A stretch of 24,554 nt of DNA from a virus. Of the stretch, positions 8,972 through 24,554 are shown in pieces; the first letter of the stretch is position 1, and each line of letters begins with the position of its first letter. The stretch is from IMG/VR virus record IMGVR_UViG_3300034685_000238, positions 1 to 24,554 of that record. One strand, 5' to 3'. The position numbers and the translations under genes were made by a program. The notes beneath the pieces are model-generated. The model ran no database searches, was not told where the DNA came from, and saw nothing but the letters and a program-made list of their open reading frames with translations.

Positions 8972-9409
8972 CTACCCAACCTTAACTCCAGTACTTCCAT
9001 ATCCGCCTCCGCCCCTATTTGTGTCAGTTAATTCATTAACCTCTTTAATATCAACGTAAACAACAGGGCAAATAACGGCTTGTGCTATCCTATCCCCTTT
9101 ATTTATTTTAAAAGGATAATCCCCTAAATTATAAACTATAACGCCAACTTCCCCCCTATAATTTGAGTCAATAGTTGCAGGGGAATTTGTCAAAGTAATT
9201 CCGTGCCTTAAAGCTAACCCAGAACGTGGTCTAATTTGCATTTCGTATCCATAAGGAATTTCAAAAGCCAATCCTGTTTTAATAAGAGTTTGTGATTTCG
9301 GTTGTAACTCACAGTATTCTAAAGATACCAAATCAAAACCACTATCCCCATCAAAATTATAGCTTGGTACTATTGCATCGTCCCTTAACTTTTTTACCTT
9401 TAACTCCAT
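8972..9409 (-). CDS. dut: Trimeric dUTPase
   Basis: dUTP diphosphatase, converting dUTP to dUMP and pyrophosphate, which keeps uracil out of phage DNA and supplies dUMP for dTMP synthesis. All five motifs are present: DSGFDL (22-27), PRSGLA (61-66), the catalytic region ATIDSNYRGE with D81, KGDRIAQ (104-110) and the P-loop-like RGGGGYGSTG (132-141). The 145-residue length is standard for a trimer-forming enzyme. ATG at 9409 is chosen because of GGAGG 5 bases upstream; a start 11 codons earlier is possible but has no RBS. Relevant to the uracil-glycosylase-like domain fused to the polymerase. Confidence 0.96.
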   Translation of the reverse strand: MELKVKKLRDDAIVPSYNFDGDSGFDLVSLEYCELQPKSQTLIKTGLAFEIPYGYEMQIRPRSGLALRHGITLTNSPATIDSNYRGEVGVIVYNLGDYPFKINKGDRIAQAVICPVVYVDIKEVNELTDTNRGGGGYGSTGVKVG

Positions 9410-9442
9410 AATTCCTCCTATTTTATTAATAACGGTTGGCAA

Positions 9443-18262: not shown

Positions 18263-21200
18263 TTAAATATTGTAAATTTCTTTTATAATTTGCATAGTTT
18301 TATTAAAGCTTTCTTCTATTTCCCCGCCCCTATAAGAAGCAAATTGGGGACTCCAAGAAAACAACACATAAGCGTCAAAAGTTTTATTATAAATAATTTT
18401 CTCAACAAGATTTGACATCTTATCCTTTTGGTGCAAATCGGCTATAATATCGCTACAAAAATTCACAATTAATTTAGGTCTTATTATTGCAATCTCCTTT
18501 AATAAAACCTCTTTACACAAAGCTTGATAGTCTTTTGGCATCTCCTCTTTGTAATTGTAAAAGCAATGTTTTAATAAACTTGTATAATATATTTGCGATT
18601 TTTTAATCCCAATATTATCAAGCGCCTTCAATAGATATTTAGTCCCATCATAACTAAAGTGTTCAGTTTCTGACTTTGGTGCGTTATTTATAAACATTAA
18701 GCCACTATAATTAGCTCCAAGATATGGGTTAAGAAACGGCAATCCATCATCTTGAAAATACTTTGCCACACCGCTTAAAGTAACGCCAAGCTCCTTGACA
18801 TCAAATCTTTGTAGCTCAAGTTTAAGTGTCGGCGTTTCATTAAAAAACGGCAAAAGCTCAGTCAACCTTTTGTGACTTCCATAGCCTTCCCCTAAGCGCA
18901 TAAAAGCCCCAGCATCAACTAAAGCTTGTTGCTTTGCTTTATTAACTTTGACTTTATTAATTCTATTCAAAAAATCTCCAAGACTTAAAAAGCTTCCACC
19001 CTTATTGCGCTCATCTATTATTGCTTCAACAGTAGAATCGCCAAAACCCTTAATTACACTAAATGGCGGGATAAGCGCCTTCTTTTCATAGTCAATAACA
19101 AACTCTTTTGTAGACCTATTTATATCTGGCAACTCTATTTCAATTCCAAGCTTTTTAGCTTCTTTTGCATATTTTTCCACATTATCACTATTCTCTATAG
19201 CTGTAGTGAGCAACGCACACATATATTCAAGCGGGAAGTAATATTTAAAGAACATACAATAATAGCTTATATAAGAGTATCCAACTGCGTGAGCCTTATT
19301 AAAAGAGTAGGACGCAAACTTAGCCATCTTCTCAAAGATTTGAGAAGCAACATTTTCGTCAATTCCTCTTTCTACACAGCCAGATATAAAGTCGCCCTTA
19401 TGCTTGTTAAACTCATCTTCGCCCAATTTCTTCCCTATAATCTTTCTCATCTTATCGGCGTGAGCCCAGCTAAATCCGCCAAGTTCAACAAATATCCTCA
19501 TAATCTGCTCTTGATATACCATTACCGAATTTGTTTCTTCGAGTATCGGCTTTAATTGTGGGACATCATAGTGTGGATATTCGTCGCCTCTTTGCACTTT
19601 CACGTAAAAATCAGTTTGCCCAGAAGAAAAACTTCCAGGTCTTATTAGGGCTGTTGCGTCAGTAATTAGGTTAAAATTATCCGCACTTAAAGCTCTAAGC
19701 AAACTCCTCATTGTATCGCCTTCAAATTGGAAGATACCAACTGTAGCGCCGTGCTTAGAAAGTGCATAAGGCTTTTCGTCTTCTATATCAATTTTAGATA
19801 TATCTATTTCCTTATTATGCCTCTTTTTAACAAGCTCTTTTGCCTTATTTAACGTTGTAAGCGTTGTTAGCCCCAATACGTCTATTTTAAGTAATCCCAC
19901 GTATTCGGCAACGTTCTTATCCCAATTTACAACAAATATTTCCCCTCCATTACTCCCTCTTCTTTCAAGATAGCCGACATTATTAATAGGTTGGCTTGAT
20001 ATAACAATTCCTGCTGCGTGCACCCCAACTTGTCTAATAGTCCCTATTAACTTTTTTATCTGCTCTATAACTTGCGGATATTTTTTACCAAAAGCAATTA
20101 AATCAGGAACTTCGTCAAAACTATTAATGCCCTCTATTTGCTTACTTAAAATATTTACTTGCTGAATATTAACCCCAAACACCCTACATACATCCCTAAA
20201 AGCGTTCTTTGGAAGTAAATACCCAAACGTTGATATATGTGCTACGTTTTGCTCCCCATACTTTCTTTTGATATAGTCAAAAACTTCGTGCCTTCTATTA
20301 TCTTGAAAATCTATATCAATATCTGGCAAGTCTATACGCTCTGGGTTCATAAATCTCTCAAAATATAAACTATGTTTAATTGGGTCTATTTGCGTGATAT
20401 TAAGAAGATAAGCAACCAAAGAGCCACCAGCCGAGCCTCTTGCTGCGCCAACCTCAATACCTTGTGCCTTAGCCCAATTCACAATATCAGCAACTATTAA
20501 GAAATACCTTAAAACTCCAAGTCTATTAATAACTTCAATTTCATAAAGCAATTGTTTTTGATATTTAGCCAAATCATCTTCTTTTACAATTGAAGCAAGT
20601 TTATTAAACCCTTCTGATATTAAAGCCGTAAAAACCTCTTTATCATCCCTATCAGGATAAGGACTTGGTAAATCAACAGTAAAATTTGGGAACTCAACAT
20701 TACACTTATCAGCAATCTCAAAAGGGGTTATTAAAGCCTCTTCAATCTTTTTCTTTGGGATATACCCAAGCTCTTTGAAAGCCTTAGCCATCTCCTCAAT
20801 ATCTTTAATATACATTTGGTCGGAATTAAATTTCCATCTTGTAGGGTCGTCTAAAGTTTTGCCACTTTGTATTGCCAATAAAATATCGTGAGTATAAGCG
20901 TCATCTTTTCTAACGTAGTGGTAGTCATTTGTCCCAATAAGTTTTACTCCAAGCTTAGAATTTATTTCTAAAGCTCTCTCATTAACAAGTCTTTGTAAAT
21001 CTAAGTTTTGGTCTAAGTCTACATCTATTTCTCCCTCAAAAAGTGAAAAGGGCATAATTTCAACATAAAAGTCTTCCCCGTAAGTGTGTCGTAATTTGCT
21101 TGCAATTTCCATATAGTCGTTTCTCGCTAAAATCCCAGAAGAGCAAGCGGTAGAAATAACACAATTCTCAAACTTAAATATATCATCTATTGTAATTCTT

Positions 21201-21529
21201 GGACGCCTATAAAATTGCTGATTTGCCTTAGACAGCATTTTATAAATAGACTTTACCCCATCATAATTTTTAGCAAGCACAATAAGGTGATACCTTTTCT
21301 CACTTTTTGATGGAACTTCGTCATCTACAACATAAAACTCAACGCCAAAGAGTGGCTTAATGCCATTCTCTTTGGCTATTCTGTCAAATTCTATTGCACA
21401 ACTAATTGAGGCGTGGTCGGTAATTGCTATTGCAGGAGCACCTATTTCTTTTGCCCTTGCAACTATATCTCCAACCTTACCAAGTCCGTCTAAAACGGAG
21501 TAGTGAGAATGTCCGTGCAAGTGTATCAT
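18263..21529 (-). CDS. dnaE: DNA polymerase III alpha (DnaE type) with C-terminal UDG-like domain
   Basis: Replicative C-family polymerase, 1088 residues. The PHP domain (1-220) keeps metal ligands (HLHGHSHYS; TDHAS; GTNDYHYV), so it may be an active proofreading exonuclease. Palm: GAARGSAGGS (361-370), catalytic D403 and D405 in LPDIDIDF and D550 in LLKIDVLGL. Fingers and tandem helix-hairpin-helix run to about 880. The usual OB and tau-binding tail is absent. Instead residues about 940-1088 match the uracil-DNA glycosylase fold: GLMFINNAPKSETE at motif A, YYTSLLKHC with C989 and C1005 spaced like the last two Fe-S cysteines of family 4, IIRPKLIVNF, and SWSPQFASYRGG at the position of the HPSP loop. 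The motif-A acidic residue and the catalytic His seem replaced. Its start follows the upstream stop by one base with a weak site. Confidence 0.93.
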   Translation of the reverse strand: MIHLHGHSHYSVLDGLGKVGDIVARAKEIGAPAIAITDHASISCAIEFDRIAKENGIKPLFGVEFYVVDDEVPSKSEKRYHLIVLAKNYDGVKSIYKMLSKANQQFYRRPRITIDDIFKFENCVISTACSSGILARNDYMEIASKLRHTYGEDFYVEIMPFSLFEGEIDVDLDQNLDLQRLVNERALEINSKLGVKLIGTNDYHYVRKDDAYTHDILLAIQSGKTLDDPTRWKFNSDQMYIKDIEEMAKAFKELGYIPKKKIEEALITPFEIADKCNVEFPNFTVDLPSPYPDRDDKEVFTALISEGFNKLASIVKEDDLAKYQKQLLYEIEVINRLGVLRYFLIVADIVNWAKAQGIEVGAARGSAGGSLVAYLLNITQIDPIKHSLYFERFMNPERIDLPDIDIDFQDNRRHEVFDYIKRKYGEQNVAHISTFGYLLPKNAFRDVCRVFGVNIQQVNILSKQIEGINSFDEVPDLIAFGKKYPQVIEQIKKLIGTIRQVGVHAAGIVISSQPINNVGYLERRGSNGGEIFVVNWDKNVAEYVGLLKIDVLGLTTLTTLNKAKELVKKRHNKEIDISKIDIEDEKPYALSKHGATVGIFQFEGDTMRSLLRALSADNFNLITDATALIRPGSFSSGQTDFYVKVQRGDEYPHYDVPQLKPILEETNSVMVYQEQIMRIFVELGGFSWAHADKMRKIIGKKLGEDEFNKHKGDFISGCVERGIDENVASQIFEKMAKFASYSFNKAHAVGYSYISYYCMFFKYYFPLEYMCALLTTAIENSDNVEKYAKEAKKLGIEIELPDINRSTKEFVIDYEKKALIPPFSVIKGFGDSTVEAIIDERNKGGSFLSLGDFLNRINKVKVNKAKQQALVDAGAFMRLGEGYGSHKRLTELLPFFNETPTLKLELQRFDVKELGVTLSGVAKYFQDDGLPFLNPYLGANYSGLMFINNAPKSETEHFSYDGTKYLLKALDNIGIKKSQIYYTSLLKHCFYNYKEEMPKDYQALCKEVLLKEIAIIRPKLIVNFCSDIIADLHQKDKMSNLVEKIIYNKTFDAYVLFSWSPQFASYRGGEIEESFNKTMQIIKEIYNI

Positions 21530-22780: not shown

Positions 22781-23974
22781 TTAAAAGGCATTTTTATTTC
22801 CAAAGGCATTTATAAATTCTTTAGTGCTTTTTTCTTCATCACAATTATCTCCCTCTATTGTCCCACTCTCGCCATCTTTGCCAACTTCTTCTTGGTAAAT
22901 TGACGGCTTATCAGAACCAAAAACTCTTTGCACAAATTCTTTAATAACACTTGTATCACCATCATTTAACTTGTTGAAAAAAGCGTAAGTAAAAGCGCTA
23001 TCCAAATCTCCATTAAATAAATTGGCTTTATCAACAATATTTAACAAAGTTCTTGTTGATATAGTCGCAAATAATTCTCCCTTTTTATGGGCATTCCTAA
23101 TCAATCCAGCCAAATCTAATATTCTATCAATATCTTTATCACTCAATATCCCTTTATTTTTGCTAAGTATTTTTCTTTCAACAGCCTTTGATTGATAATT
23201 AAACTTAACAACCATAGTAAATCTATCAAGTTGTGCAAAATTTTGTGGCATAGTTCCTTGATACAATCCAGTATCGTCGCCAAGCCCAGCAGTATTTGAA
23301 GTTGCAAAAATCCTAAAATCAGGGTGAGGATAAATAACTTCATTAGTATCACTTAAATTTAAAGGCTTGCCTTCCAAAACCGCTTGCAAAACCATAGCAA
23401 CCCCAGCAGGAGCACAATCCCACTCGTCTATAAGTAAAATCGCCCCCTCAGACATAGCCTTTGGAATTACCCCGTATTGATACTTCATCTCTTTCTCTTG
23501 AACAGTCCATTGTCCAATTAATTCGGACTTGGTAATTTCGTTGTCAAAGTTAATTCTATAAAACCCATAATTAAGTCTTGAGGCTATTTGCTCTATAATA
23601 GTGGATTTTCCACTACCAGTAGAACCAACAAGCAACACCTTCTCGGAAGGATTTTTAATTGCATACATAAGTAAATTTAAAGTATCCCCGCTAAAAACAT
23701 AATTATCGTCAATAACGGGAGTAGTTTTTGCAGGCTTCTCAAAAATTGGGACTTCCAAGTTTGTATCACCAGCCCCAAAAATCTTCCTAACGGTATCAAA
23801 AGTTTTCTTTCTATTGTCAGCCAACAATTTATTTGCCTTTATTTCGTTCATAATTAAAGACAAATCGTTACCATATTTACCCAAATACCTTTCAACCCCA
23901 ATACAATCTTTCTCTAAATGTTTGGTAATATCCAAAGCTTCAAAACCACACTCTTTGCACCTTACTTTTGACAT
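22781..23974 (-). CDS. cobS: CobS-like AAA+ ATPase (MoxR/VWA-associated)
   Basis: A 397-residue AAA+ ATPase of the CobS/MoxR group. An N-terminal zinc finger (C6, C9, H19, C24 in RCKECGFEALDITKHLEKDC) precedes the ATPase: Walker A GSTGSGKS (117-124), Walker B LLIDEWD (D183, E184), sensor 1 FATSNTAG (N227) and an Arg finger near R251 (QLDRF). The C-terminus from 365 is acidic and disordered. In bacteria CobS works with CobT to insert cobalt in cobalamin synthesis, but no CobN is here, and phage CobS/CobT pairs are more likely remodelling chaperones. It sits 92 bases downstream of its VWA partner, with its own promoter and AGGAG site. Confidence 0.88.
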   Translation of the reverse strand: MSKVRCKECGFEALDITKHLEKDCIGVERYLGKYGNDLSLIMNEIKANKLLADNRKKTFDTVRKIFGAGDTNLEVPIFEKPAKTTPVIDDNYVFSGDTLNLLMYAIKNPSEKVLLVGSTGSGKSTIIEQIASRLNYGFYRINFDNEITKSELIGQWTVQEKEMKYQYGVIPKAMSEGAILLIDEWDCAPAGVAMVLQAVLEGKPLNLSDTNEVIYPHPDFRIFATSNTAGLGDDTGLYQGTMPQNFAQLDRFTMVVKFNYQSKAVERKILSKNKGILSDKDIDRILDLAGLIRNAHKKGELFATISTRTLLNIVDKANLFNGDLDSAFTYAFFNKLNDGDTSVIKEFVQRVFGSDKPSIYQEEVGKDGESGTIEGDNCDEEKSTKEFINAFGNKNAF

Positions 23975-24013
23975 AAAATCTTCTCCTTATCTTTTTTTTA
24001 TTTTGCTACAATA

Positions 24014-24061
24014 TCAATTACTTGATTTAACTAATATATAAAAAATATATACAATTTCAAG
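24014..24061 (-). promoter_or_regulatory. cobS promoter plus 5' UTR stem-loop
   Basis: -35 TTGAAA (24061-24056), 16-base spacer, -10 TATATT (24039-24034), then hairpin ATCAA-GTAA-TTGAT (24027-24014), which has a GNRA-type loop. Lies right after the stop of the VWA gene. Confidence 0.6.
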
Positions 24062-24065
24062 TCTT

Positions 24066-24554
24066 TTATAAAGTTTTTTCCATAAGCTCTAAAAGTTGTT
24101 TTGGGAATTGAGAAACATCTCTTATAATTGTATAGTTTTTATAAAAATTCATAACGTTTTTACTCTCGTAGCCAATCCCAAATATATCTACCTTTCCTGC
24201 TTGCTCTATACTTTCAATAACCTTTTTAGTGTGTATTACTGTTTTTTCACTATCCCCCGCACTAACTACTGGAACTCCGTCACTCAAAACAAACAAAAAC
24301 TTTCTTTGAGCAGATTGCTTTAGCAGTCTACTATGGGCATATTCAATAGACTCCCCATCTACGTTACAACAACAATATTGTGAAAATTTAGAATTTGCGG
24401 CATAAGCAAGCCTCTTTTGCACTTTTGCATTATACATATCTTTAAAAGACTTAAACTCCCATAAAAGCAAGTGACTTTGCCTTGAGAACTCTCTACAATT
24501 TAAAAAATTCTTTGTGTATAAGAAATCCATAAATTTTTTGCGCAAAGCTTCAAA
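24066..24554 (-). CDS. cobT: CobT-like VWA-domain protein (3' part, runs off the window)
   Basis: The frame is open through the last base of the window, so only the C-terminal 162 residues are seen. They match the end of a CobT-type von Willebrand factor A domain: NVDGESIEYAHSRLLKQ, FLFVLSDGVPV (the strand with the conserved SDG), SEKTVIHTKKVIESIEQAGKVD and IFGIGYES. The MIDAS DxSxS segment would lie upstream, outside the window. Internal ATG or TTG codons near 24530-24545 are not real starts. It precedes the CobS-like gene, the usual pairing of a VWA adaptor with an AAA+ ring. Confidence 0.85.
   Translation of the reverse strand, partial: FEALRKKFMDFLYTKNFLNCREFSRQSHLLLWEFKSFKDMYNAKVQKRLAYAANSKFSQYCCCNVDGESIEYAHSRLLKQSAQRKFLFVLSDGVPVVSAGDSEKTVIHTKKVIESIEQAGKVDIFGIGYESKNVMNFYKNYTIIRDVSQFPKQLLELMEKTL

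Follow-up and report, generated by a model that had tools for sequence, protein, structure and literature searches.

The polymerase gene and its neighborhood

The window analyzed here is the whole 24,554-nucleotide stretch of the IMG/VR virus record IMGVR_UViG_3300034685_000238. On its minus strand lies an open reading frame of 1,088 amino acids, whose frame and residues match the description in an earlier note on this DNA (table 1). Pfam confirms the core of a C-family DNA polymerase, with PHP, Pol3, fingers, and helix-hairpin-helix (HhH) domains each above the cut-off (PF02811, PF07733, PF17657, and PF14579), and sequence searches match alpha subunits in the PDB with E values down to 6e-168. 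Matches of the polymerase in genome contigs are all DnaE proteins, at 34–38% identity. Residues D403, D405, and D550 of Pol3 are in columns that are invariant among relatives with a uracil-DNA glycosylase (UDG)-like tail. In the PHP domain, HxH and TDH-type metal ligands are present (HLHGHSHYS and ITDH), and judging from these residues the domain may still be an active PHP nuclease. The same ligands are gone from most UDG-tailed relatives (MHAILAARSNFS).

Table 1. Features of the polymerase gene and of genes near it in the window
Feature	Position	Strand	Basis or remark
dnaE-like C-family DNA polymerase, 1088 aa, UDG-like domain at C-terminus	18263..21529	-	Pfam, PDB matches
PHP domain, residues about 1-280	20690..21529	-	PF02811; model aligns to PHP structures, 1-281
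Pol3 core (309-553) and fingers (556-722)	19364..20605	-	PF07733, PF17657
Tandem helix-hairpin-helix, residues 795-881	18887..19147	-	PF14579
Linker, residues 882-907	18809..18886	-	Alignment with relatives
UDG-like domain, residues 908-1088, family-4 UDG fold	18266..18808	-	PF03167, Foldseek, VIA-align, full-length model
Degenerate motif A, INNAPK, residues 947-952	18674..18691	-	Alignment
IYYTSLLKHC, residues 980-989	18563..18592	-	Alignment
Degenerate motif B, SWSPQFASYR, residues 1058-1067	18329..18358	-	Alignment
CobT-like vWA gene (incomplete, window edge) and CobS/MoxR-like AAA ATPase	22781..24554	-	Upstream of dnaE
Conserved downstream companion gene, 134 aa	17509..17913	-	PHROG 2058/1069; two genes downstream of dnaE

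Genes in this part of the window are ordered CobT, CobS, sigma-like, a 232-aa gene, dnaE, genes of 73, 134, and 327 aa, and RecA, followed by a 128-aa gene, SbcD, SbcC, ligase, RuvC, dUTPase, PhoH, and a 5'-3' exonuclease. Rhizobium phage RHph_N1_10 has the same order (CobT, CobS, sigma-70, three hypotheticals, dnaE, SSB, exonuclease, RecA, and two DNA repair exonuclease subunits). Homologs of CobS, RecA, and the 134-aa gene are close to UDG-tailed dnaE in most relatives, and those of the 134-aa gene are located just downstream of it in nine other phages or plasmids. Judged by eye, the 134-aa product resembles a UvsY-type recombination mediator. The polymerase is part of an old replication module found in phages of roughly 100–120 kb, several of which are phage-plasmids. 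The CobT/CobS-like pair upstream of dnaE is common to SSU5, nickie, BUCTxx99, and Rhizobium phages. Elsewhere in the window, positions 2394–2897 of the minus strand encode an ArdA antirestriction protein (PF07275, E 1e-23).

The phage encodes a dUTPase, as claimed previously (8972–9442), as do 9 of the 15 records that carry this polymerase. Across the same 15 records, neither a PF02768 beta clamp nor a second UDG was detected; phage 0305phi8-36, which has an OB-tailed DnaE, does have a PF02768 beta clamp. No base-modification gene was seen among the window genes scanned.

Fold of the C-terminal tail

The tail of the polymerase is a UDG-superfamily domain of family-4 type and occupies the usual place of the OB and C-terminal domains (CTD) of DnaE. 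The earlier note had proposed a UDG-like tail and suggested structure prediction against the UDG families, as well as a search for DnaE proteins with the same tail. PF03167 (UDG) exceeds its gathering cut-off of 24.3 bits at residues 942–1077, scoring 26.8 bits when the whole protein is searched and 31.5 bits (E 2e-7) with the tail alone. Both PF03167 and the family-4 model TIGR00758 match 12 of 12 aligned homologous tails at the E-value limit used. The window tail is nearest TIGR00758 within NCBIfam, at a score well under the cut-off of that model. Among solved structures, a profile built from these 12 tails picks up the S. tokodaii family-4 UDG (E 1e-17), followed by those of Tth and T. maritima and by UdgX.

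Structure prediction matches the family-4 fold and not an ordinary OB/tau-binding domain of DnaE. The tail was modeled with AF2 from 15 alignment rows (mean pLDDT 71.6); the model aligns in VIA-align with 4zbx at a Z of 18.1 over 175 residues (rmsd 2.8) and with 1ui0 at 16.9, whereas MUG/TDG structures score well below, at 10–12. Foldseek likewise ranks family-4 UDGs at the top (E 2e-8 to 1l9g). In a model of the full-length protein (mean pLDDT 82.4), residues 1–885 correspond to E. coli alpha (2hnh; Z 43), where the alignment ends, and residues 908–1088 correspond to a family-4 UDG (Z 15–17). The UDG domain therefore starts near residue 908 and replaces the OB domain and CTD. The region proposed earlier, about 940–1088, was correct as to the domain but is too small at its start. 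Neither the Pfam scan nor the alignment of the full-length model reveals an OB or tau-binding domain in the window polymerase, in agreement with the earlier view that this tail is missing, and a tail of the DnaE1/DnaE3 type is ruled out by Pfam and by the match to UDG from residue 908. Phage DnaEs commonly have an OB tail there instead, as judged by eye.

Relative to family-4 UDGs (Tth 1ui0, S. tokodaii 4zbx, and T. maritima 1vk2), the window domain has the fold over 171–177 residues (Z 16–18) and keeps the Y, T, and K of the YxTxxxK segment and several prolines, but it lacks the motif-A Glu, the uracil-binding Asn, the motif-B His, and the set of Fe-S cysteines.

The linker between HhH and UDG was considered as the place of an internal clamp-binding motif. 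A conserved QxELLPGL-like stretch is present there in 19 of 25 relatives, compared with a chance expectation of 0.009 per 35 aa, a count that is inflated by relatedness, and the window linker reads RLTELLPFF, without the Gln. The motif is thus a weak lead only. In our own reading the site is presumably an ordinary helix after the GAF motif, and not the E. coli clamp motif.

Active-site residues, distribution, and origin

Active sites were compared in an alignment of 26 DnaE-fused domains and references with about 20% identity. The residue positions given in the earlier note for INNAPK (947–952), YYTSLLKHC (981–989), C989 and C1005, and SWSPQ (1058–1062) are accurate, and the replacement that it read for the motif-A acid and the catalytic His is seen in the alignment as N949 and S1060. 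The family-4 Gly-Glu of motif A has become N948-N949 in the window (NNAPK, not GE[AG]PG). At the Glu position, 24 of the 26 fused domains have Asp; the other two, those of the window and of its nearest relative among them, L004, have Asn. The uracil-binding Asn of family 4 (N80 of Tth) is S984 in the window and A, G, S, or T across the 26 fused domains, never Asn. The motif-B His is S1060, with P1061 retained; across the fused domains this position is N (15), S (6), A (4), or G (1), never His. Residues T983 and K987 are invariant within the fused family. In family 4 and UdgX, the Asn and His hydrogen-bond uracil, and the Glu activates the water or nucleophile (PMC10359453).

Free UDG-like proteins of phages mostly keep these residues. 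GE[AG]PG and the Asn are intact in six of seven compared (including L011, L042, L181, L182, and L185) and in the PolA-fused L183, and the motif-B His is visible wherever the alignment covers motif B (e.g., L183 and the free L011, L181, and L182). The exception is the free protein L035 of 0305phi8-36, with degenerate motifs (D and Q). Because free UDGs and L183 keep the motifs in the same alignment, the residue loss is not an alignment artifact. The alignment indicates that the catalytic Asn and His have been lost family-wide and that the pocket is more decayed on the window branch, a deduction made at about 20% identity and with pocket loops 950–960 and 987–995 of the window modeled at pLDDT <50. 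In the other fused domains a catalytic Asp is possible, given the D of motif A in 24 of 26.

Three other readings of the pocket do not fit. C989 and C1005 are indeed 16 residues apart, but the hint of an Fe-S cluster drawn from them earlier fails. The tail lacks the four-Cys set of family 4, with no N-terminal CxxC; C989 is one residue off the family-4 register, the first Cys is in no other fused domain, and in L004 the two positions are occupied by V and Y. On these grounds, no cluster is expected in the window tail. Features of UdgX (GEQPG and the R-loop KRRIH) are not found, the window having NNAPK and, after K987, HCFYNYKEEM. A MUG/TDG-type Asn in motif A was also rejected. In MUG/TDG the Asn adjoins the Pro, whereas the window Asn is two residues before Pro, and A950 holds the adjoining place.

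The suggested search for DnaEs with the same tail finds them in phages and in about 900 plasmids of PLSDB. The nearest relatives of the window are L003 (99%) and L004 (49%). The architecture is found in SSU5-type, Rhizobium, Pseudomonas, Stenotrophomonas, and Acinetobacter phages or phage-plasmids. With an SSU5-type query, the same kind of tail is found in 31 phage records (phages of Rhizobium, Klebsiella, Pseudomonas, Escherichia, Salmonella, and Stenotrophomonas among them) and matching tails in 913 PLSDB plasmids, the carriers being phage-plasmids of Klebsiella, Escherichia, Acinetobacter, and others. Among the 80 loci kept from the genome-contig matches, a tail profile detects no UDG tail and only one free UDG (L148). 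In an Acinetobacter baumannii plasmid (L178:438-4681), a NUMOD4 gene splits the polymerase gene, and the C-terminal half is labeled "uracil-DNA glycosylase family protein."

The fusion is not newly seen here, and the parallel fusion that the earlier note suggested is not a new one. Timinskas et al. (2013) described Yersinia pestis and Salmonella DnaE proteins (DnaEX) with PF03167 replacing the OB domain and CTD (PMC3919608), and the architecture is common in phage-plasmids. The window shares the PHP-Pol3-HhH-UDG order, and SSU5-type DnaE carries the same tail. The window domain differs from DnaEX-UDG tails in being about 20% identical, in having motif-A Asn rather than Asp, and in having four residues fewer after motif A.

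Phage family-A PolA polymerases with UDG regions do exist, as the earlier note stated. They are encoded by a Lysinibacillus Spounavirinae phage (L184), PMBT14 (L043), a Manatee Spring myovirus (L183), PaBG (PMC7412058), and phiLo, of which the polymerase 9qhs matches the tail model over residues 34–205 (Z 11.6). These SPO1-type and other PolA-UDGs resemble the window in having a UDG-superfamily domain on a phage replicative polymerase. They differ in that the core is family A rather than C, the UDG is N-terminal (residues 26–180 in L043, L183, and L184), and the motif-B His, lost in the window, is retained in the three inspected (L043, L183, and L184). According to its PDB title, 9qhs is a family-A polymerase of a phage "with modified template"; no paper describing phiLo or 9qhs was found in the literature searched. 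PolA-UDG genes in L043 and L183 are near genes for thymidylate synthase, dCMP deaminase, or pyrimidine hydroxymethylase-like proteins. PolA-fused UDG domains may be linked with modified pyrimidines.

In a core-only tree, built without the tail and including long branches of OB-tailed phage DnaEs, UDG-tailed DnaEs form two strongly supported groups that fall next to each other, but without support. When these long branches are omitted, a branch with SH-aLRT 99.9 separates the UDG-tailed DnaEs from the rest, in a quick search with no bootstrap. The UDG part of the window scores 64 bits against other DnaE-UDGs and 35 bits against free family-4 UDGs. Together, the branch and the closer match to DnaE-UDGs suggest that a single fusion event is the better reading, with the long branches keeping it short of proof. 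The fusion may have drawn on a free UDG gene. Free UDG-like proteins are encoded in phages with OB-tailed DnaE (L011:1-486, L035:1670-2293, and L042:1926-2483), with family-4 motifs intact in L011 and L042 and degenerate in L035. Purifying selection maintains the UDG domain in relatives; dN/dS in the UDG part of five pairs is 0.01, 0.10, 0.32, 0.22, and 0.24, where one pair has a saturated dS of 3.3, and the polymerase core is in the same range. The window and L003 have too few differences for such an estimate.

Role of the tail in the replicase

We consider it probable that the tail of the window DnaE is a non-catalytic fold of family-4 UDG type that replaced the OB domain and CTD and is now a module for binding DNA or a partner. 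A family-4-type UDG has replaced the OB and tau-binding C-terminus. The residues for holding uracil and activating water (Asn, His, and Glu) are gone, and uracil excision would have been lost along with them. The DNA-binding face of the UDG, which formerly scanned DNA, would tether the polymerase to the single-stranded template or to the duplex behind. Alternatively, this face or another surface of the UDG would take over from the OB domain by docking a replication partner. It is this role in place of OB that we infer, whereas the fold and the architecture were computed. One point against it is that a host clamp could be the source of processivity, leaving the tail for another role.

The precedent is vaccinia D4/A20, in which a UDG acts as processivity factor, according to three reports (PMC3946371, PMC10253040, and PMC1936997). 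By analogy, the tail may resemble D4, the processivity subunit of the E9 polymerase, but within the polymerase chain and without catalysis. D4 is likewise a UDG fold in a replicase with a catalysis-independent role (PMC1936997 and PMC3946371). It differs in being a separate subunit of another UDG family that retains uracil excision and serves a B-family polymerase.

More tentatively, and with low probability, the glycosylase-stripped UDG fold would be a built-in element for template reading or processivity of a C-family replicase and would let the phage polymerase work without its own clamp. Since the motif-A acid is lost too on the window branch, the pocket there may read a different base or none.

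It is rather improbable that the tail serves to dock one of the phage replication proteins, such as SSB, a helicase, or the product of the downstream gene, without contact to DNA of its own. Binding of tau and the clamp usually resides in this part of DnaE, and the gene order that links dnaE to the downstream gene, SSB, RecA, and SbcCD is conserved, but the downstream gene product resembles a recombination mediator more.

We give slightly less credence to a read-ahead sensor, which would bind template uracil or a modified template base without excising it and stall or license the polymerase. The tail sits on a replicative polymerase, the phage encodes a dUTPase, and the match to 9qhs is to a structure whose title names a modified template. 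However, the uracil-binding Asn and His are absent, the window genes scanned lack a visible base-modification gene, and only 9 of the 15 records have a dUTPase. With all three key pocket residues lost, a family-4-type pocket is unlikely to sense dU.

Other UDG families (MUG/TDG) function with different motif residues. Least probable, nevertheless, is an active DNA glycosylase with altered chemistry or substrate (e.g., a modified or damaged base) that couples repair to replication: the UDG fold is kept, 24 of the 26 fused domains retain an acid (D) in motif A, and MsmUdgX E52N/H109S excises uracil, about 75-fold more weakly than H109S (PMC10359453), but the window has lost all three positions (N949, S984, and S1060), Asn and His are lost in 26 of 26 fused domains, and the MUG/TDG Asn place next to Pro is A950.

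The DnaE-UDG architecture and phage PolA-UDG are already published (PMC3919608; PMC7412058; 9qhs). The domain swap received one sentence in 2013 (PMC3919608), and no follow-up of that remark was found in the papers searched. What may be new is that catalytic residues are lost throughout the family, along with the signal of a single origin, the greater pocket decay on the window branch, and the lack of a phage clamp; in the literature searched, no paper stating any of these was found.

A non-catalytic, DNA- or partner-binding tail would have consequences for annotation and for replication. The family-wide loss of pocket residues predicts no glycosylase activity. In present annotation, split versions are labeled "uracil-DNA glycosylase," and the PHROG model of the UDG half (phrog_4335) has no assigned function. 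If the UDG fold replaces OB, it raises the question of how the replicase would stay on DNA without a phage clamp, and the fold of a repair enzyme would have been recruited as a DNA-binding module of a polymerase, as in poxviruses.
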